Assembly: GCA_017506865.1 (NCBI GenBank)
Contig: JAFCMP010000084.1
Span: 186,001 to 250,000, forward strand
Direction: 5' to 3'
Origin: Tribonema minus
Taxonomy: Eukaryota; Sar; Xanthophyceae; Tribonematales; Tribonemataceae
DNA length: 64,000 nucleotides
Position numbers and translations under genes: made by a program. The notes below the pieces were generated by a model that worked only from the letters and a program-made list of their open reading frames with translations, was not told where the DNA came from and made no database searches. This document shows, one piece after another, positions 38,782 through 50,705 of this stretch; the stretch's first letter is position 1, and every line of letters begins with the position of its first letter.

Positions 38782-41700
38782 TTATAGTGTGATCAAGCTG
38801 TAGAAGCCGTCGCACATGCCCTTGGCCTTGCGTGCGCAGTCGGGGTGGCGCACCACCTGCAAGTTGAAGTTGTTCAAGAGGTGCAAGGGCAGAGGAGGTA
38901 AGCATACGTATCTGATGTTGCAGGTTCTCATACGCTATACTCTGAAGTATGCAACACAGCTTCCGTACTGGCTACTATGAATTTATATCAGCTTGGCAGC
39001 CCAGCTGTGGCACGAGCAAATTTCAAGCAGTGACGCTTTGGGCCGCAAACCACGCCAGCAGCAGCAGCAGCAGCACAAAAAGCCAACAACTGGCGCAAAT
39101 ACTACTAGGCTTTGTGCAAGTCTACATGAAAGGCCAACATAGAGCATCCGAAATGACTTGATAGCTCATGCACCTGAGCATACCAAGAACGCCGCTTAAT
39201 GATGACGACAAGCAGCTTTGTATCACCCTGTTTTCCATTAAGGCCATCACTTTTGCGTAACTCCAACTACGCATGTACGTATTGTACGTATGCCAGCGCT
39301 GCCCTCACCTCCAGCGTGTGATTCCCCGGAGGCAGCGGCGGCTCTATCCTGAACGCCTCAAAGTTGTCGTCGAGTACACTAATCAGCTGCAGCTGTGAGC
39401 GCCGACTCGGAGGCACGTCCCCCCTGTCGGCCCCCCTGACCCCCTTGCTGTTGAGCGAAACGCTGTTGTTCCACTCCAGGAGGCGTAGCACGAAGGCGGG
39501 GCCCTTGTCCGGGGGCAGGTGCAGGCCGGGGTGGTAGCAGTTGGACATGATGACGATGCCGGTGTGGGTGCTGACGTGGAGGCGGCCGATGGCGGAGTCT
39601 CCGCCCACTGCCTGAGGTGGTTGAGAAAAGCGTGCATAACAGCTGAGTGACACGTGTAAGTTGATGCGGCTGTTCATTTTATGGCAAAATCGATTCAATT
39701 AGTAAGTACCTAAAAATATCTGACGGAGTGCTGTGTTGTGTAGCTGTGTCAGTCTCCGCCCACTGCCTGAGTTGATTGCGGGAAACATGCACAGAATCAT
39801 AAAACAGAGCGTTGTGTGTAATTGGCATGATTGTAGATTGCCTGGCGCCCTGCATCTCTGTCATGGTGTGTTGCCGTGCTGTGTAGTGCTGTGACGAAGC
39901 GAGTGCAGGTATGGTAGAGCCTCCGCCCACCGCCTGAGGTGGGTGTGGAAATTATGCATAGAAACAAAGAGAGGTGTAGTGAATGCGACTGTTCAATTCA
40001 TGGCGCACTACATATTTGTGACAGTATGTTGCCATGCTGCATAGTGTTGTGACGAAGTGAGTGCAGGTATGGCGGAGTCTCCGCCCACCGCCTGAGGTGG
40101 AGTGTGGACAGCGTGCAGAAAAGCACAGTGATGTGTGTGAGTTGATGCGGCTGTGGATTGCCTGGAACCATGCATAGCATTAAAGTGATGTGCAGTGATG
40201 GCGACTGGGGATTGCATGGCGCACCGCATCTTGTGACGGGGTGCTGCTATGCTGTGTAGCTGCGTGTGTCTCCGCCTATCGCCTGATGGTGGTTGTGGAA
40301 ATCGCGTATAGAATCAGAGTGATGTCAACTGCGACTGCGTACTTTGAGGCGATTGCATCTTTGTGACGGTGTGTGACCATGCTGTGTGATGTTGTGACGA
40401 AGCAAGTGTAAGAGTCTTTGACCGCCGCTTGAGGTGATCATGGAAAACGTGCAGAGAATTTGAGGGGAGCGGTACACATGAGGCAGCTGGCTATCTGAGT
40501 CGGAACGTCTGACCAGACAGTGTGCATACGTTCAGGTACAGTTGAAAGTGCCCCTGCCTTTACCAGAATTAACGTGATGTGTAGTGAATCGACTGCAGTG
40601 TGCGTGGCGCACTGCATCTTTGTGATGGGGTGCTGCCGAGCTGTAGTGTTGTGACGAAGCGAGTGCAGGAACAGCAGGCGTAGGCCTACTGCCTGAGGTG
40701 CAGAAAGAATTCATCAAGGTCAGGTGGGGTGCATAGCTGATACTTCGACCTGCTTGGTTCCAGGAGACGTGTAAAATTTCGTCAGAAGCCTTGGCACCAC
40801 CCCCTGTCAAAGGCAAGGGGGCCTGCAGATTGCTGGCAGTTTGTGCGGGAATAAGTTTGGTGTAACATCGTTACACAATGATTCGTGGAGGGTTTAGTCG
40901 TGCATGAAAATGTCATCTCAGCAACTGCATCTGCACTGCATAGTCAGCGCGCAAACGTGCGTCTTTTGTTTGTTTCAAAGAATGTGAAGCAGCTGCTACG
41001 GCGCAATCCTCAATAAGATGTAACACTGCCATGCGCTGCGCGACATCACTATACAACATATGCAGTGTACCCATGTGCACTGCAGAAACTGCACGGTTTG
41101 CCAGCCGATGACATGCGTCAGCAAGCAAAAGCAATGCACTGCAGGCAGTAAGAACACTGCCCAGCCGCGTACCTGTATGCACTGCGGGAAGTACACCGTT
41201 TTCTAGCCGACGGCATGTGTCAGCACGTACTGTACCTGTGTGCACTGCAGAAATCGAACGTTCTGCCAGCCGACAACATGCGTCAGTAAGTGGAAAATAT
41301 GCAGGGCAGGCACTAGTACACTGTACGGTGACGTACCTGTATGCACTGCGGGAAGTACACCGTCTTCCAGCCGACGGCGTGCGTCAGCACAGGCTCCTTG
41401 CCGCCCCTGTCGGGATGCGCTATCACCGGAACGATGTCACACTCAAACTTGAAGTGATCCACGTCGTACGCCAGAAGTTGAGGATGGAGGGGCGCTGGCA
41501 GGGGTTGACGCTCCATTATTGGCGCTGGGGCGAAGCCATTGGCGTGTACTTCTGCCGACCACTTGGAGTAGAGGTCCACGATGTAGAGCATGATGATCTG
41601 GCAGCGAATGAAGCGCGCATTCGAGGGGCGTGTGTATTAGTATCAAATCTGCCGCGTCAAGACATAGTGATGATGAGCAGTGCTGTGCAGGATAGGCGCA

Positions 41701-44700
41701 GTGCGTACAAGGGCAGGCGTGCGTATCAAGCAAAGCAGGAGCAGGAGATGATGAAGTGCCGCAGTTTGTGGTGACCCTGGCTGCATCACAGTCAATGAGC
41801 TAAAAGGCTTTTGCACTTGGAAGGGGTAGAGTTAGGGTTAGGGAAGGGCAGCCTCCCCGGTTCTGGAATGCCATGTCATTCACCCCCCCTTTACCTTGGC
41901 ATGATGATCTGGCGGCGAACGAAGCGTGCGGGCAAGGCGCGCGTGTGTTGATCTCTGTTGAGATATGGAACTCACTCATATCCTTGTATTTGATTGAGTT
42001 TCAGCACTCATCAGTTGCATGTTACGTGATGGCGTGCTTGCGACTCCTGCTGAGAATGGCCATTACATGACGGTAACATTTCTCTTGATTCTCCTGGGAA
42101 CTACTACTGTTGTCTCCCCTCTGCACTCCGTGTGCGTATATCTAAGGGTTATCAGCCTGTCTCAAAGTCTGCGGCCGCGTACAGACATGATGATGATGAG
42201 CAGCGCTGCACAGGACAGGTAAAGTATGTACACGGCAGGCGTGCGTGTCGAGCAAAGCAGGAGATGATGCAGCACCTGAGGTGTGGTGACCCTCGCTGTA
42301 CCACTGAGCTAAAAGGCTGCTGCACACCTGGAAACGCAGCCTTCCCCTTGGGGCATGTCAAGTGAGTGCCTCATAATCCGCTGACCTCAAAACTTATCAG
42401 GGAATGTGACAGCACCTGACAGACAGCTCTGGAGACCCATGTCACCACCCCCCCTTTACCTGGGCTTTGGTCCCTCAAGACCGCCAGGACGGGCAGCCAG
42501 GGTCACCACAGAGTGCTGTGTGTCGTACCATCACATGTCAATTATACATGTCAAAAGTAAAGTGCTGAAGAAAAGGGCACTGACCTGCGCCGTAAGCCCG
42601 TGCACAAAGGCGTTCGGGTGATGCACGTCGCTGCACACATCCACCTTCATCGCAAACAGCGCCCGCCCCTTCCAGTTCAAGTTGCCAAGTAAGTGAGATT
42701 GTTTCTCTCCTTTCATGTTTGCCTTTACACGCACTGACCTGCGCCGTCAGCCCGTGCACGAACGCATTAGGATGATGCACGTCGCTGCACACATCCGCCT
42801 TCGTGGCGAAAGGCGCGCGCCCCTTTCACTTCAAGATAAGTTGCCAAGTTCGTTCGTTTTTGCTTTCAAAAAAGCAAAGCACTGAAGAACTAGCACTGAC
42901 CTGCGCCGTGAGCCCGTGCACAAAGGCGTTAGGGTGATGCACATCACTGCACACGTCGGCCTTCGTGGCAAACGGCGCGCGCCCCTTGTTGAAGTTCAAG
43001 TTGGAGTTGCCAAGTATATTCATCTTAGAATATTGGCTTTACAAAAGAGCACTGACCTGCGCCGTGAGCCCGTGCACAAAGGCATTGGGGTGGTGCACGT
43101 CGCTGCACACGTCAGACTTCAGAGCAATCGGCGCGCGTGGCCCCATGCTGAACTTCAACTTCAACTTTCCAGGTTAATTCATTCATATTTGTGTGAGCAC
43201 TGACCTGCGCTGTGAGCCCGTGCACAAAGGCGTTAGGGTGATGCACGTCGCTGCAGACATCCGCCTTCGTGGCGAACGGCGCGCGCCCCTTGCTGAAGTA
43301 CGGCCACACCATATCACGTAGCGATATCCCCGTGACCCCATACAACTTGTGCACCTCCTCGTGATAGGGCTGAGCGCTGTCGTAGGTGAATGAGCGCCCC
43401 CAGAAGGAGATGCCGAATACGGCGGGGGTGGGGTCGGTGCCGGTGAGAACGGTGCGCGTGGCGAGTTCGTAGGGGAGGGAGCTGAAGGTGCCGTTCGGGA
43501 GGGTGTACTGGCCCTGGTCGTTGAGAGAGAACTCTGTGAAGCGATGATGCAGAAAGGGTGCACAGTAGATGCAAGCGTCAGTGATAATAATAATGCTGGC
43601 TCGTGTTGTATGCTACAACACGAGCTCGTAGGGGAGGGAGCTGAACGTGCGGTTGAGCAGGGTGTACTGGCCTAGGTCGTTGAGAGAGAACTCTGTGCCG
43701 TGAAGCAATGAGGCAGCAAGAGGGTGCGGCAGATGGAAGCGTTGGTGACAATTTTGACGCTGGTTGTCATAATTGTGGTGTACGTGAAGCAAGACGGTGA
43801 TGGTACAGTGAAGGCTTCCAGTGCATAGAAGCGTCAACGCTGTTTGCTGTCCGTCATGCTCTCACGTAGCTTTAGAGGTTGGTGTGCATGGTTTAACGTG
43901 AGGCAGATAATGATGCGGGCGGAGAGGGTACGCTGGCCCTGACATTCAGCTCAGGGAATTCTGAGAGTGAAGCGGCAGCAGCCATGGGCCGCAGGGAGTG
44001 TGACACAGTGTTGGCGAATGAGAGCGACGATACCCTGCATCTTGTGGCAAGAGTGATTAGAGGAGCTCATTCAGTCACGACGTTATGCTCTGGCACCACT
44101 GCTTGTATCTGCGCTCAAGTCCCAGCAGCAGCGCCACGCGCGATGCCTCCCCTCTCCCCCTCTCCCCCCTCTTTGAGCACTGACTACATAGGCTGTTTAA
44201 AGGCACCTCACGCAGCGACTGCTGTGGCACCGGTATAATGTCACAATGCTCAGCAGGCCAGCACGCACCTCCAGCGGCAGCACCGTGCTGAGCAATGCCT
44301 GCGCCTACTACCACTGCAGCCAAGCCCCGCGCGATTCATTGTAGCCCCCCACACCCTGAGCACTGACTTGCGCTGCCGATGGCAACTTGCACAGCGGCTA
44401 CAGTAGCGCTGGTCTGCTAGTAGTGGTACAGCATTCAGCTTCCGGGCCCACCATGAGGGTTAGAGTTAGCACGCATCTCCAGCGGCACCGTGCTGAGCAA
44501 TGCCTGCCCCTATGACCACTGCAGCCGAGCGTAGCTCGCAGCGGCGGGGGGCGCACAGCACCAGCGTCAGTGCGCGCCGCACTACTGCGCTCGAGCGTCA
44601 ACTACACACAGGCATCCTACACGCATACATTTTGATTGTCAGCATACCGCCCGCCATGATCATGGTTGTTGAAGATTGTTTTTGAGTTTGACTGCCTTGC

Positions 44701-47700
44701 TCATGCAGTGCAGTATGGTCAGTGCAACATGCGGTTGGCGCGACGCATTGTGATGATATGCTCAAGAAGCACGCGACCCCGTTCGTTAGCAATCATACTC
44801 CAAAGCTGCCTACAAACTTCAACGTACACATATTTGTGTACACATGCGCATGCACGAGCTGCTGCAATGTGTGTACGCATAGTGCACAGAGTCGTCAACA
44901 CCCCTTCCGCCGCCTCTTCTGCGCCAGCACAGATTGAGCAATTCGGGCCCTCACCCCCTGTGCAGTACATATATCTCAGCACTCTGTAACGTATCGAGCG
45001 CTGCTGCCATGCACCCCAAGTGCTCACTCACAGGTTGAGCGCTGCTGGCGTCCCCCCCACCCCCCCCTGGCATGGCAACATCACCGCGCCAACGTTCCGT
45101 ACTTGGCGGAGCACTGCTGCCATACAACATCAACTCCAGCGTCACGCAGCGCTCAACTCCAGCGGCATGGCCTCGGTAATGCGTCGAGCACCGGTGGCAC
45201 TCGCGCCAGTGCTGAGTCATAAGTTGAGCGCTGCTGCCATAAACTGTCAAGCATGGCAGTGCCCAGCTCTGACACCGTGACCCTCTTAACCCTAACCCTA
45301 ACTCAAACCACCGAGCAACCCGCACACACGCGGCGTCGCGTCAGCGCTGGTCATGTGTTGAGCACTGCTGCTGCTGCTGGGGCACTCCAGTTCGGCAGTG
45401 TCCAGCTTTGAGACCGTGTTATTCGCAACAAAGCAAGCACTGCTGGCACCAGCACTGGGCAGTGGGGTTGAGCACTGCTGCTGCTGCGCACTCACCAAGC
45501 ATCGCTGTGTCGAGCTCCGGCGCCATGCACAGTTGACACTTGCCCCAGCGCTAGATCACGCAGTGAGCACTTTAGCGTACTCACCATTGGCGCCGGCGCA
45601 TCTGTGCAACGAGCTGAGCACTGTCTTCACTCAATCATTGAGCGCTACAGACACTCGACAGCGTATCATGCGCCAACGCTCCGCAACTGAGCGCTGCTGC
45701 TCGCATGGCCATGTCAAGCTCCGGCGCCATGACGGCGCGCGCACAAAGATCCAGCATCAGCGCTCAAGTATGATTTGTAACCGCCACTGTAGCTGCTGGT
45801 ACTCACTGCACATGGCGACGTCTCATGCCTACGCCGTAGTTTATGCACTGTTCAAACACTCACTCCAGTGCTCCGCGAACAAATGACGATGAGCATGGCC
45901 TCTGCAAATGGCACTCACCGAGCATGGCAATGTCGAGCTCCGGCGCCATGACCGCGCGCGTACAGAGCCCTAGCGTCAGCGCCCCGTGCGACGCGCGCGC
46001 CGTTGTGCATGCGCACCGACACCATATGAGTGTTCACCCCTTGTTTCATGAAGTAACCACCGCTGCAGAGCACTCACTCACCGAGCATGGCAATGTCGAG
46101 CTCCGGCGCCATGACCGCGCGTGCGCACAGCCCCAGCGTCAGCGCGCCGTGCGATGCGCGCGCGCCGTTGTGCATGCGCACCTGCGCGCGCGGGCAGAGG
46201 TGGCTCAGCAGCGCGCTGAAGTTGCCCGCCCACGAGTCGTCGTGCTCGGTGATGGAGCCGCCGATGGCGCCCACGTTGATGTCCGCGCCGGGCGTCACGC
46301 ACTTAAGGAAGACATTCCGCAGTTGAGCTTCGGTGCTGGCGCCGGCGACCCTGGCGCACGTACATACATACATTCAAACATGCATACATGGGGGGCGCAA
46401 GATGAGATGTCAGCATATGTGGAAGTAATGGATGGCTAGATTATGAGTGGGCGTAGGGAGCACAATGCACTTGAGGAAGACGTTCCGCAGTTGCGCTTCG
46501 GTGCTGGCGCCGGCGACCCTGGCGTGCGTGCATACATGCATGAGGGGGGGCAAGATGAGATATGTGTCACAATGGATGGCATGATTGCGGGGGAGCACAA
46601 TGCACTTGAGGACGACGTTCCGCCGTTGCGCTTCGGTGCTGGCGCGCCGGCCACCCTGGCATGCACACATACATGGGGGCGGGGGGGGGAGGGGGGATGT
46701 CAGGGTATGTGGCACAACGGATGGCGTGGTTGTGAGTGAAGCGTGGGAGCATGATGCGCTGGAGGAAGTTGTTTTGGCTATTGAACACCGTGCTGGGACA
46801 GCGACCCTGCACACGAGCGCATGCAGAGATGATGGCACAGTGTGACGGTGTGTGGCCAGGCTGTGCAACGACTACGAGTGTGTGGCAATGCTTTACAAGC
46901 GGGCGATTACGAGGCACTTGAGGCACATGGACATTCCGCAGCTGTGTCCCTAACCCTAAAACCTAACCTAACCCTAACCCTAAGCTGGCGCCGGCCACCC
47001 TGTACGATGTGCATGAACACGTGCAGTTTTGGGGCAGTCATTTGTGTTGTCACAGCGTGCAACAAATTAGCGTGAGCGAATCGTCGACTTGAAGATGACA
47101 TATATGATATACCGCAACTGCGCTTCAGTGCCGGCGGCGGCCACGCTGGCATGCACATGTGGCCAGGTGCACGCACACAAAAAATGAGTGGCAGCGTGTC
47201 GTAACCACATTAGCGTAGTGGATTGCGTGAGGGAAGCTGGCGAGCACAGCGCCCTACTTAGAGAAAGACGCTGCGCAGCTGAGCTTTGAAGCCGGCGCCA
47301 GCCACTGGGCATGCCTACATTGCGTTTTGCAAGTGGAGACACCAGCGAAGGCGTTTGGCACAACTGCATGACTGAAAAGCGAAGGGAGGGCAGTGCATCA
47401 GGGCACAAAGTGCAGACACACAAGATGTGGCGTTGCTCGCCCCCCGCATATGCTGGCGCTGTCAGTCGTGCAGCGCGGCAGTACGTGGGACAGTACAGCG
47501 GCAGTTCAGCGAACTCTGTTTGGGCATGCGCCAGTTACCCTTTTATATGAACAGATGATTTCTGGATCGGCACAGAGATATACATTGTACGTGTGGCATC
47601 ATGCTTGGGCAGATGTTGCAGAACTGAACCAAAGCTTTGATTTCAAGGCTGCTGTGCTGAAGCCCTTCACGGGCCATTGTAAGTGTGAAGTGACAGCAGA

Positions 47701-48741
47701 CAGGTAGCATTCACAGCACAGAATTTGCAAGAGCATATATTGGCTTTGAGCAGCGTATGTACGTCAACTTGACAGCGATGTGTGCGACCATCGGCATTGA
47801 GCAAAATGCGATTGGTCGTACCCCGGGCAGTGTTTGTTTGAAGAAGGCCCACAAGAGGGAGATTGCAGCACAATATGCTGCTACAGTACTTCGAACATTC
47901 TATCAGCACGGGCCAAATGTAGAGCTGCACCAGGCACTGCCAGCTTGACCACGGTCCATGACCGACTGGACTGCGATCTCGAAAACTTTCCTCCACTGGC
48001 TCCATGCAAGCTACAAGCTTGCAGTCGTTAACGTGGAGAATCCCATGTGCATGACCAGAGCAGCTGGCCTGCAGCCTACTTTGGGCAGACTGGTAGAAGA
48101 ATGGAAGTGGTATGCCTCAGCATGCGGAAGTCTACTGCAGATGATGCGTCAAGCCGGTGTGGCGCTCTAGGTTTAGGGTTAGGGTCAGGCGCAGGTGCTC
48201 GGTGAGGGCAACCGGCAAATTCAATGTGACTTGACCGATTTCATCATTGTTCGCGGTTCGTGAATCCACGTTGTACGATGCAATCCATGTTGCAACCACC
48301 AGCCCCAGCTCAGCTACGACATTCCCGCATCCACTGCCTTCTTGGCCAAGCATGCCAAGAAATGTGTAGGAGAGACTATTTATGCGGAAATCGCCATCGC
48401 CATAACTGAAAGAGAGACAATACCACCATCTTAGAGAACTGGAGTGAACTGAAACAAACTTCCCCATGAAACGACGCTCACCTCAAACTCTTCTCCAGCA
48501 GCATATCCGGTGGGTACTTCTCCCTGAGATTCGCAGCAAACTGCTCCGCAAAGGCATCCGTCGCCTTCATGTCCAGAGAGTCAATAGGCACGCCGCTGGC
48601 AGCAGTGGAGGGCACTGATACATCGTCTGAACGCACGTGCACCTCCATCTTGACCTCTGGCGTGCTCAGACAGCATCGCAGTATTGCGGCCACCAGCAGT
48701 AGTGCGAGCGGCCGCAGCAGCACATGCCGCGATGCCATCAT
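38782..48741 (-). CDS. Secreted or membrane-anchored SGNH hydrolase-like protein, six core exons plus tandem cassette exons
   Basis: Core exons: 48,482-48,741; 46,082-46,350; 43,205-43,533; 41,337-41,597; 39,309-39,611; 38,782-38,856. All GT-AG, phases agree, total 1,497 nt (498 aa). The N-terminus is a signal peptide or anchor (MMASRHVLLRPLALLLVAAI). SGNH/GDSL blocks follow in order: GAIGGSIT with nucleophile Ser119; MHNGA with Asn148; DIAMLEFSLND; GISLRDMVWPYF; and DVHHPNAFVHGLTAQ with Asp272/His275. The LEFSLND block is created by joining exons 2 and 3, which supports the model. The C-terminal ~210 residues (exons 4-6) are a beta-rich extension ending HPDCARKAKGMCDGFYSL. Likely an esterase or acyl-hydrolase acting on glycans in the secretory pathway or wall. 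Introns are packed with copies of exon edges. A frame at about 48,230-48,405 (SYGDGDFRINSLSYTFLGML) has a good acceptor and may be an extra exon. Confidence 0.82.
39757..40705 (-). repeat. Ghost array of SGNH exon 5 acceptor edge
   Basis: The exon 5 start with its acceptor (plus-strand core TCTCCGCCCACTGCCTGAGG) recurs at about 39,757, 39,919, 40,077, 40,268, 40,420 and 40,686, spacing ~150-190 nt where regular. Intervening intron text (TGTGACGAAG(C/T)GAGTGCAGG, GCTGTGTAG) is repeated as well. Copies decay with distance from the true exon. Confidence 0.85.
41062..41290 (-). repeat. Ghost array of SGNH exon 4 donor edge
   Basis: The last ~55 nt of exon 4 with its donor (plus-strand TACCTGTATGCACTGCGGGA ... 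CAGCCGACGGCGTGCGTCAG at 41,335-41,392) is repeated at about 41,226-41,285, 41,170-41,224 and 41,066-41,120. All three are degraded. Confidence 0.85.
41831..41843. repeat. Short interstitial TTAGGG run (SGNH gene intron)
   Basis: GTTAGGGTTAGGG, two units. Confidence 0.7.
42585..43143 (-). CDS. Four tandem cassette-exon copies of the SGNH catalytic Asp-His segment
   Basis: Four copies of the last 28 codons of core exon 3 (native 43,205-43,288) stand in the following intron: 43,057-43,143 (29 codons), 42,901-42,984, 42,739-42,822 and 42,585-42,668 (28 codons each). All are open in phase 0 and end in CAG|GTCAGTG donors. The last three begin right after an AAG that could act as acceptor; the first has ATG there and its acceptor is unclear. 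The second and third encode exactly the native peptide (GRAPFATKADVC ... VHGLTAQ) with 7 and 8 synonymous changes and no amino-acid change; the fourth has three replacements. Being 0-0 phased, each could be included or exchanged without frame loss. I read them as functional tandem exons; transcript data are needed to show use. Confidence 0.65.
44250..46020 (-). repeat. Ghost array of SGNH exon 2 donor edge
   Basis: The 3' end of exon 2 with donor (plus-strand CTCACCGAGCATGGCAATGT CGAGCTCCGGCGCCATGACC) is copied almost perfectly at 45,911-46,020, less well at 45,701-45,768 and 45,488-45,556, and as weak traces (GAGC(G/A)CTGCTGCCAT, CTCCAGCGGCA) back to about 44,250. The best copy differs from the exon by a net indel and a few substitutions. 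Confidence 0.8.
45287..45304. repeat. Interstitial CCCTAA run (SGNH gene intron)
   Basis: TAACCCTAACCCTAACTC, two to three units inside the exon-edge ghost array. Confidence 0.75.
46440..47305 (-). repeat. Ghost array of SGNH exon 2 acceptor edge
   Basis: The start of exon 2 (peptide VAGASTEAQLRNVFLKC) recurs at about 46,465-46,530 (identical peptide), 46,590-46,655 (STEAQRRNVVLKC), 46,745-46,800, 46,905-46,945, 47,080-47,140 (AGTEAQLRYIIYVIFK) and 47,262-47,305 (FKAQLRSVFL). They become less exonic with distance upstream. CATACATACATG-type runs separate the nearest copies. Confidence 0.85.
46949..46984. repeat. Interstitial CCCTAA run (SGNH gene intron)
   Basis: Four to five imperfect CCCTAA units, including the variants CCTAAAA and CCTAA, again between ghost exon edges. 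Confidence 0.8.
47580..48170 (+). pseudogene. Unrecognised broken reading frame inside SGNH intron 1
   Basis: Protein-like plus-strand sequence in pieces: FDFKAAVLKPFTGHCKCEV in one frame, then after a shift near 47,700 EFARAYIGFEQRMYVNLTAM and KKAHKREIAAQYAATVLRTF, a TGA at about 47,946, and in the same frame TDWTAISKTFLHWLHASYKL to a final stop at 48,170. It runs antisense to the SGNH gene. Composition and continuity suggest a decayed coding sequence, perhaps of a mobile element, but I do not recognise the family. Confidence 0.4.
48172..48187. repeat. Short interstitial TTAGGG run
   Basis: TTTAGGGTTAGGGTCAGG-type run directly after the stop codon of an unrecognised plus-strand reading frame and inside SGNH intron 1. 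Confidence 0.7.
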
Positions 48742-49145
48742 AGGCTCTCTGCCCTCTCCCTTTTCAGCGAGCTTCACTCGAAGGCAACAACTTCAATTTT
48801 GCAAGGTAAAGTTGAAGTTGCCGTGCAAAGTTCAGGTAGCGAGAAGAAACGAAGGCAGGGCACCAGAGCAGGGCAGCAGAAGCGCTGTTTTACGACATGA
48901 TGGAGAACATATGCCAGAAGCGGGTTCGACTGAGGTAGACTGAAGCGGCTGCTCTGGAAGATCCAGGCTCACATTCGCATGCTGCTTCGCAGCTGCGAGC
49001 GGCAGTCTGCGGTTTTGTTTCAAGCATGCAGGCAGCGCACAGCGTCAACAAGGGCAAAGGACGAGCAAAAGGTGTCGTGGATCACTTCAGAATCTGTTGA
49101 GCGCGTGGGAGCAGTTGGCGCCACGGGTTGACGAAAGAGTTTGGG
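48742..49145. promoter_or_regulatory. Divergent intergenic region between SGNH and GT25 genes
   Basis: Only ~404 bp separate the two start codons, which point away from each other, so both promoters must lie here. I see the recurrent motif AAAGTTGAAGTTGCC at 48,808-48,822 but no TATA box or other named element. Confidence 0.5.
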
Positions 49146-50705
49146 ATGCTGTTTCGACGAAGGTGCGACGTATTATTCTGCTGCTGCTTGTGGCTGTGGC
49201 AGGGCAGTGCAGTCAGCGAAACCTTGCAGGCTGCTGCACCGGTTCTGCACGTCTTTTACATCAATCTGGAGCGCAGCTCAGACCGCAAGAACCATACGGA
49301 GCGATGGCTGCATCAAGAGGGATTCGGGTCCAGCCAAATGAAGCGCGTGGACGCTATTGACGCGCAGAGCTTCAACAGCACGGAGATCACCAATGAACTG
49401 ACGCTGCAGGTGCAGCTGCCGTGCCTTCAAGTGCGAGCATTCATGCTTGGATCCTGGTCTCACCCACCCGTCCTGGCTGCAGGCCTGAGCCACGCAAAGG
49501 CAGTCGCTGTGGCGTACGCAATGGGAGTATCACAAGCTCTGATACTGGAGGATGACATGGAGCCAGTCCCATTGAGTAACACGGAGAACGTCAACAGACC
49601 TGCGGAGTTGTCGACATGGCGCTACATCGAATACATCACTGATACACTACCTGCAGGCTGGCAGGTGCTGCAGCTGTCGTCACTGGTGTACACCAAGGAG
49701 AAAGCGGACCTGCTTGGTGCTGAAATCAGGAGTGGGCGGCTATGGTCGCACCGTGATCGGTGCAGCGGAGCGTCGCTGACGGTATGGGGAGCTGGCGCGT
49801 ACATCATCAGCAGGGATGGTATGGAGGCATTCCTCGGCAGGTACGCCAGGCCAATCTTGCGTGCCAGCGTCACAGATGCAAAGGCCTTCTGTGGACGAAT
49901 TGATCTCAGGCAGTCAGCTGTTGGTGTAGTCCCAGACATGCTGATGTATGACTTCAAGCAGGTGTACGTCAGTCACTTGCCCGTATTTCGGCCGGCCCCT
50001 GACATTTCAGCACAGTCAACGGTTCAGGCTGAGTACACTTCATTTTTGGAAGGGCTGCTCAGCGGAGACTGGCTGCAAGAAGCTCGCAGGCTGGCAGTGA
50101 GCATCGCGGCACCAGCCGCAGCTGCTGCAGGCAGCGCGGGTGCAGATGCGACCAGCGGCAACAGCTGTCCAATGCCGCTTGCAGCAGAGGAGACATGCAG
50201 TGATTGCGCCGGCGATAGTCATGGCAGCCTTCCGCGTCGTGCATTTATTCTGTTCCCCGACCTGCTCCTGCACGGTCATCACAACAAAGTCGCGCACGCT
50301 GGCTTGCCTGTCTCTGAACAACCCGTGGACGTTACTTCAACAGCAGACAGGCTGCGTTTCTACGCGCTGGTGGACAGTGTTGATGCGCGGGCGACGCCAC
50401 TGTGGCGGCAGCTGCTCAGTACGTACTTCAGCGAATGTGGTCTGCCAACTACTGCGACGTTGTCGTTTGACCGCAATGCGGCGCACCAGACCGCAGGTCC
50501 GTCGCTGACTGTGTTGGTGCCCCTGTCGGCCATGCTGAGGGGTATCCATCTCTCGCCACAGGCCACAGACATGGAGGCTGTGGCTGTAGCGAATTCATTC
50601 TGCAGGGTGTTCCTATCATTCACAGATCCCACCGACTGTATACAACGCATGGCCATACTGCTGCTCAGCAGTCTGCAGTTGGCCACCAGTTCTTCCACTC
50701 AATGA
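49146..50705 (+). CDS. Glycosyltransferase family 25 protein, single exon
   Basis: 519 aa from ATG 49,146; the frame is open further upstream but without ATG. The N-terminus has basic residues and a short hydrophobic stretch (CDVLFCCCLWLWQG), a signal peptide or type II anchor. The GT25 domain occupies about residues 30-290: VFYINLERSSDRKNHTERWL, PPVLAAGLSHAKAVAVAYAM, the acidic metal/nucleotide-binding motif ALILEDDMEP, and WGAGAYIISRDGMEAFL. Family members move hexoses, for example galactose onto hydroxylysine or LPS sugars; the acceptor cannot be told from sequence. The C-terminal ~200 residues (a Cys pair in ETCSDCAGD, then RLRFYALVDSVDARATPLWR) match no domain I know. It is intronless in an intron-rich neighbourhood and divergent from the SGNH gene, so a shared secretory role is plausible but inferred. 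Confidence 0.85.
   Translation: MLFRRRCDVLFCCCLWLWQGSAVSETLQAAAPVLHVFYINLERSSDRKNHTERWLHQEGFGSSQMKRVDAIDAQSFNSTEITNELTLQVQLPCLQVRAFMLGSWSHPPVLAAGLSHAKAVAVAYAMGVSQALILEDDMEPVPLSNTENVNRPAELSTWRYIEYITDTLPAGWQVLQLSSLVYTKEKADLLGAEIRSGRLWSHRDRCSGASLTVWGAGAYIISRDGMEAFLGRYARPILRASVTDAKAFCGRIDLRQSAVGVVPDMLMYDFKQVYVSHLPVFRPAPDISAQSTVQAEYTSFLEGLLSGDWLQEARRLAVSIAAPAAAAAGSAGADATSGNSCPMPLAAEETCSDCAGDSHGSLPRRAFILFPDLLLHGHHNKVAHAGLPVSEQPVDVTSTADRLRFYALVDSVDARATPLWRQLLSTYFSECGLPTTATLSFDRNAAHQTAGPSLTVLVPLSAMLRGIHLSPQATDMEAVAVANSFCRVFLSFTDPTDCIQRMAILLLSSLQLATSSSTQ

Follow-up and report, generated by a model that had tools for sequence, protein, structure and literature searches.

The gene and its predicted product

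The window analysed here, a stretch of 64,000 nucleotides from Tribonema minus (contig JAFCMP010000084.1, positions 186,001 to 250,000), carries on its minus strand a gene in which four exons can be delineated. Exon 1 (48482..48741) is predicted from a start codon at 48741, an open frame and a GTGAGC donor, and its product has a hydrophobic N terminus as judged by eye. Exon 2 (46082..46350), which contains the GGSIT (block I) motif, exon 3 (43205..43533), whose 3' end is the native segment termed P below, and exon 4 (41337..41597) are each delimited by homology to paralogs and by a CAG acceptor, with GTGAGT, GTCAGT and GTACGT donors, respectively. Joined, exons 1 to 4 form an open frame of 373 codons. 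The gene runs on past exon 4, and a search for an exon downstream of exon 4 found none. Its introns contain short TTAGGG-type runs (about 46930-46985 and 48170-48185), which are also seen elsewhere. This repeat, with which contigs C511 and C512 begin as well, probably represents the telomere repeat. On the plus strand, adjoining exon 1, lies an intron-free ORF of 526 amino acids (49125-50702) that matches Glyco_transf_25 (PF01755, 28.9 bits, cut-off 24), and a Cys-rich plus-strand ORF at 56547-57035 matches Ephrin_rec_like (PF07699, 36.2 bits, cut-off 23.1).

Compared directly with Pfam, the window protein matched no family at E 0.1, the joined query carrying two small errors. Within the assembly from which the window comes (158 Mb, 554 contigs) it found 44 matches, nine of which are exons or copies of this locus. 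Two of the three paralogs scanned, L005 (33.5 bits) and L006 (36.7), pass the PF13472 cut-off of 32.9, while L002 fails; the window protein is 41% identical to either of the two that pass. The motifs GGSIT, FSLND and DxxHP are kept in the order of SGNH/GDSL enzymes. In an alignment of nine sequences GGSIT is present in all four rows that reach the motif, LND in seven of seven, and D178 and H181 in nine of nine. We take the Ser of GGS, the Asn of ND and the Asp-x-x-His motif to be the SGNH/GDSL catalytic blocks, their roles being those known from the family. Homology to PF13472-matching paralogs and the ordered motifs thus identify the gene as SGNH-hydrolase-like, which agrees with the initial annotation of this DNA even though a direct Pfam match is absent. 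Because none of the nine aligned sequences departs from the Asp and His of DVHHP, P is predicted to contribute these two catalytic residues in an SGNH-type hydrolase, and the earlier view that the repeated segment is the catalytic Asp-His part of the enzyme is likewise supported, the catalytic role being that known from the family. The assembly also contains 92 exon-level matches to light-harvesting proteins and gave no match to the RuBisCO small subunit, a short family that introns could hide; this would be the pattern of algae with red-type plastids.

Copies of exon edges in the gene and in the genome

P, the native final 84 nt of exon 3 (43205..43288, minus strand; GRAPFATKADVCSDVHHPNAFVHGLTAQ), is followed in intron 3 by four copies of itself, recognised by sequence comparison and lying on the same strand: C1 (43057..43140), C2 (42901..42984), C3 (42739..42822) and C4 (42585..42668). 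All five are 84 nt long, open and in phase 0, that is, tandem homologous segments of matching length and phase, the copies consisting of whole codons with phase 0 at either end, and each ends in CAG/GTCAGTG (here and below the slash marks the splice site), where GTCAGTGC occupies donor positions +1 to +8. The linkers, 64, 72, 78 and 70 nt long within 42669..43204, have diverged, with ACTTGGCAACT retained upstream of C2, C3 and C4. Over the 84 nt, the synonymous to replacement differences from P are 10:6 for C1, 7:0 for C2, 8:0 for C3 and 7:3 for C4, so that C2 and C3 encode the same protein sequence as P. One replacement is gained (7:1) when the comparison with C2 is extended a few codons upstream, to 31 codons. 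Of the 28 codons, 19 differ among the five segments, yet the encoded residue changes only at codons 1, 4, 5, 7 and 9; in codons 10-28 (DVCSDVHHPNAFVHGLTAQ) the residues are identical throughout, while 12 of the 19 codons differ. These figures bear out what had been annotated, namely the parent segment with four in-phase copies and their donors, at the same coordinates, the 7 and 8 purely synonymous changes of copies 2 and 3 (over 84 nt), and the three replacements of copy 4. The statement that copy 1 diverges only in its first half is correct for the protein and fails for the DNA, where six silent differences fall in codons 10-28.

Further exon-edge copies, all on the minus strand, are found in the same gene. 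Intron 1 holds two copies of the 5' edge of exon 2, one with three synonymous and no replacement differences (46467..46518) and one with a 2-nt insertion (46602..46655). In intron 2, the 3' edge of exon 2 recurs at 45919..46017 together with GTGAGTG (2-nt gap; 5:1), at 45703..45763 with its donor lost (5.5:3.5) and at 45498..45527 with its donor retained (2:1). The same intron carries a copy of the 5' edge of exon 3 (43621..43692; 5:3, then a stop codon). Sequence comparison places a copy of the exon 4 acceptor region plus the initial exon 4 bases in intron 3 (41899..41949), and downstream of exon 4 its 3' edge is repeated at 41236..41286 (decayed, 5:8), 41173..41226 (in-frame stop, 3:1) and 41076..41123 (decayed, 4:6). 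Altogether, six of the seven internal exon edges known in the gene have copies; among the edges of exons 1-4 examined, that of the exon 1 3' end showed none. Local same-strand repeats make up 3579 of the 9242 bases of the gene (39%), as against 1663 of 54758 in the remaining window (3%). Judged from these repeats, the array is part of a wider tandem duplication across exon-intron edges, with a unit of about 150 bp in the array itself. There is a tendency for copies of 3' edges to bring a donor and for copies of 5' edges to bring an acceptor, the opposite side being missing. Such copies may persist because they are located in introns.

The phenomenon extends beyond this gene. In 20 sampled 10-kb stretches (L022-L041), diverged local direct repeats occupy 16063 of 200000 bases, or about 8%. 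From these stretches and the window, the SGNH-like gene excluded, 26 pairs were assembled, each consisting of a coding-like exon and a copy located outside that exon. They total 129.3 synonymous to 157.7 replacement differences (45% synonymous), a figure to be read with care since some pairs share an exon and one L039 region was counted on both strands, so that the pairs lack full independence and some of them are not truly coding; two pairs (L023) are probably protein-internal repeats, and without them the ratio is 81:97. By our own estimate, about 40% synonymous differences are expected between a dead copy and a live exon, the live side changing only silently. As a class, exon-edge copies look dead in this sample. 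In the 264 kb sampled, AACTTCAACT was observed 27 times against 0.8 expected, and AACTTGAACT 12 times against 0.5. One short contig is redundant in the assembly, C489:5400-6400 being 100% identical to C70:84400-85500 over the 1001 bases compared.

Exon-edge copies also occur in a paralog on contig C522 and in CCT chaperonin genes. In the CCT gene of contig C51 (L046, 21900-22750), a copy at 92-184 reproduces the 5' edge, including the GDGTT motif, of a native exon that begins at 462. It differs from the live exon by 15 synonymous changes and one replacement and has a CAG acceptor and no obvious donor. On the scale that gives the SGNH-like array 14.4 it scores 17.2, at a locus that was picked because a profile search showed copies and is not a random draw. 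A second copy there stands at 8:1, with part of the unit lost. The CCT locus of contig C5 (L045, 352800-354400) contains, between 449 and 1198, eight matches to an exon 3' edge, ranging from nearly intact to decayed, most of them with GTACGGTGC-like donors. Among further CCT stretches, that on C511 has a single copy, in which about 10 nt at most are exonic, that on C279 repeats an acceptor region but none of the exon itself, and that on C235 has no exon-edge copy that we could see.

Amino-acid constraint and splice signals

A substitution spectrum was drawn from 1039 substitutions in other local repeats. In codons 10-28, a sub-region chosen after inspection of the data, all 14 changes of C1-C4 from the majority sequence are synonymous, with 24% expected for each (2.7e-9). 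Over the full 84 nt there are 20 synonymous to 11 replacement-codon changes (1.4e-5), and 15:3 without C1 (1e-6). Replacements are therefore depleted relative to the neutral expectation, although over the 84 nt the depletion is weaker when C3 is left out (13:11, 0.0044). This last test matters because C3 is possibly the oldest copy, and changes unique to the oldest copy could sit on the live lineage. Set against the 45% background of the sampled exon copies, the comparison of P with C2 and C3 (15:0) has a probability of 6.4e-6 and that with all four copies (32:9) one of 1.7e-5; all these tests assume independent differences, which is true only in part, and concern an array picked because it looked conserved. 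When 142 local repeat pairs in the 264 kb, array included, were scored separately for silent bias, the array took the top three places (14.4, 10.8 and 9.6), the next score being 7.2. The array is thus, at 15:0, an outlier among exon-edge copies, which supports constraint. Statistically, the protein and donor sequences of the copies are constrained, to a moderate degree once the selection of the example is allowed for, and the purifying selection that had been suspected is borne out by this comparison of the five copies. Gene conversion, which the initial annotation had named as one of two findings that would refute its proposal, accounts poorly for the conservation since silent sites, third positions and linkers differ freely. 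A load of conversion, a relay of the live position among copies and a deletion making the copies live were set aside by argument, as the rates needed would erase the silent divergence.

The donor is identical from +1 to +8 in P and C1-C4. Its survival unchanged in all four copies has a chance of 8.5e-4 at each copy's own third-position rate. The flank from +9 to +55 has strongly diverged, six of the ten pairs resembling shuffled sequence and four aligning clearly better. Among 21 native donors collected, C at +3 occurs only in the exon 3 donor, so that GTC is unusual. The acceptors are less favourable: those found in frame for C1-C4 are all AAG or GAG, as opposed to CAG in 23 of 23 native acceptors, a collection made by eye and therefore biased towards CAG. 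In C3 an in-frame TGA lies two codons upstream, and the in-frame acceptors that remain are AAAG/GGG or GAAG/GCG. The CAG/GTCAGTG at the end of each copy would also fit, by eye, a set of recursive splice points; that idea was rejected, as it leaves the amino-acid constraint unexplained.

The spacing of the copies limits how they could be spliced. Their linkers (64-78 nt) are shorter than all of 73 inferred introns, whose shortest member is 179 nt and whose median is 572 nt, these being gaps of approximate length between CCT and HSP70 matches in a subset of the matches; joining of neighbouring copies in one transcript is therefore unlikely. An intron from the P donor to the 84-nt form of C2, C3 or C4 would measure 220, 382 or 536 nt, within the inferred range, while inclusion of C1 would need an intron of only 40-88 nt. 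On these lengths, C2, C3 or C4 could possibly be included singly, and C1 is the weakest candidate. As P is fused to exon 3, it would not be exchangeable; short of a donor internal to exon 3 being used, a copy would have to follow P as an addition. Pairing of the docking-selector type was sought between the first linker and the sequences preceding the copies. Pairing as strong was reached in 1.6% of 500 shuffles for C2, 45% for C3 and 42% for C4, and related motifs are common genome-wide. The pairing before C2 is thus a weak lead.

Interpretation of the copies

Clusters of mutually exclusive exons that arose by tandem exon duplication include OGDH exons 4a/4b, as described in the available text of PMC7969005, and Dscam, for which that of PMC6071210 sets out a docking-selector model; in both texts short linkers figure as one way of enforcing exclusion of joint use. 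The array resembles these clusters in that homologous segments, equal in length and phase, follow one another in a single intron with short linkers. It differs from them, as far as those texts describe them, in that its first member is fused to a constitutive exon, its in-frame acceptors are poor, its protein segments are near-identical and not diversified, and its use as exons is only putative. On its sequence organisation, it falls outside a strict definition of mutually exclusive exons; it may function in the manner of a tandem cassette array. Intron gain by tandem genomic duplication of AGGT segments, reviewed in PMC3443670, likewise copies splice-site sequence by local tandem duplication, at least in the portion of that review available. 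Here, however, the duplicated unit straddles an exon-intron edge that was already present, and its copies make intron 3 longer: C1-C4 all lie inside that intron, and no exon was found to have acquired a new intron between duplicated AGGT sequences. Titles and abstract openings, in a coverage that leaves most subscription journals outside, contained no description of such an array and nothing on an SGNH hydrolase together with mutually exclusive exons. The available parts of PMC7617258 and PMC12702839 contain nothing on such arrays.

Partial exon duplications, or pseudoexons, are exon fragments in introns that have one good splice site and are expected to decay. The array shares the first two features and, unlike them, keeps most of its protein sequence and its donor. 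To our knowledge, an intronic array of exon copies is no feature of the SGNH/GDSL family (PF13472).

The sequences show a local tandem duplication across exon-intron edges in which the end of exon 3 and its donor were copied four times into intron 3, and the statistics show that the amino-acid sequence of the four copies, together with their donors, has since been largely preserved. The likeliest cause, we infer, is that a fraction of the transcripts includes the copies, or did so until recently, as alternative exons in frame, each 84 nt long, or 60 nt if the GAAG inside the copy were taken. At most one of them (C2, C3 or C4, over the intron lengths given above) would be added per transcript from the P donor, and inclusion would be expected to be rare in view of acceptors other than CAG. 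The product would keep P and gain a second DVHHP block. As a structural guess, the added copy, joined to the last helix, may then be the one whose Asp and His are positioned for catalysis. Weak in-frame alternative exons, no more than one added per transcript, are in our judgement the best reading of these duplicated and constrained copies, with a probability of about 45%. Belief in exon use is kept below one half because the C51 CCT copy is equally biased; with 15:1 and no obvious donor, that copy means that a silent bias alone is no proof of exon use. Either copies of the C51 type are used through sites that we do not see, or silent bias arises without use. The proposal that the copies are used exons is accordingly supported in part: amino-acid constraint and donor conservation speak for it; the non-CAG acceptors, the short linkers, the CCT copy and the presence of other exon-edge arrays in this gene and genome, several of which are decaying, speak against it. 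Of the two outcomes once envisaged, isoforms with exchangeable segments or a protein with several D-V-H-H motifs, the single addition of a copy is possible, whereas a swap conflicts with the fusion of P to exon 3 and the joining of neighbours with linkers below 179 nt. Mutually exclusive exchange itself is not supported, P being the fused end of exon 3 and no separate exon, and the in-frame acceptors found for the copies being AAG or GAG where native ones are CAG.

The copies could instead be dead relics, the intron always being spliced from P to exon 4 and the silent bias being a chance extreme, aided by selection of the example, by silent changes of the live exon and by copies younger than they appear. 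Such a fate would match the class background, whose 45% differs little from our estimate of 40% for dead copies, and the sister arrays of the gene, damaged as they are by a stop, by frameshifts and by the loss of a donor; the poor acceptors, the short linkers and the modest bias over 84 nt without C3 fit it equally. It has difficulty with the 15:0 of C2 and C3 and the 32:9 of all four copies against that background, with donors retained in all four, and with the zero replacements in codons 10-28 of any copy, and we rate it as a serious contender, somewhat less probable than exon use. If, on the other hand, recent unequal exchange between long-separated functional alleles or lineages had created the array, the copies would have been born diverged, their silent differences dating from a past as live exons, and would now be unused. 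This would account for silent bias in copies that do not resemble cassettes, such as the CCT copy of C51, and the silent splits among the five copies do conflict with one another. It requires, however, a silent divergence between alleles of 0.35-0.55 and several sources. Two pieces of the gene, compared as DNA with the whole assembly, gave no second allele-like match: one piece matched only itself, the other a paralog at 73%, plus 82 bases at 83% in a paralog on contig C3. The single look-alike contig pair compared is the identical one mentioned above. An origin of this kind appears improbable to us.

Replacement of P, which the preferred reading does not provide for, would become feasible if a donor within exon 3, for example CC/GTACTT before the segment, were joined to a copy, the CCT copy being used in like manner via an internal acceptor. 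By eye, CC/GTACTT to TTCAG/C before C1 keeps the frame, restores VWP and supplies a CAG acceptor, and a comparable pair of sites can be read at the CCT locus. Yet frame-keeping pairs are easily found by chance, the options read for C2-C4 would lose the family-invariant Trp of VWP, and the C1 intron of about 154 nt would fall under the 179-nt minimum; substitution through internal sites thus seems very unlikely. That the copies are an assembly artefact and absent from the genome is hardly credible. The assembly does contain at least one redundant short contig (C489 against C70), but copies and linkers are all mutually different, which assembly duplication would not produce, and local repeats and exon-edge copies are present on other contigs.

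Tandem exon duplication is a recognised source of alternative exons, but the stages by which a raw duplication becomes a used exon are seldom observed. The sampled stretches hold exon-edge copies ranging from fresh to decayed, an empirical background from which two outliers stand out under apparent protein constraint, so that ordinary RNA-seq could test whether duplicated exon ends are captured. A broader proposal would be that in this alga local tandem duplication keeps copying exon ends and splice sites into neighbouring introns and that a minority is captured as coding sequence; in the present gene, the enzyme would thereby acquire catalytic Asp-His blocks, either interchangeable or repeated, that are near-identical in sequence. 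We regard this as rather unlikely. If it were true, an intermediate stage between tandem duplication and tandem alternative exons would be visible in quantity. If the copies are unused, the silent bias needs another cause, which would be a caution against taking such bias as proof of use. If they are used, an enzyme that gains a second catalytic block by splicing would be unusual.
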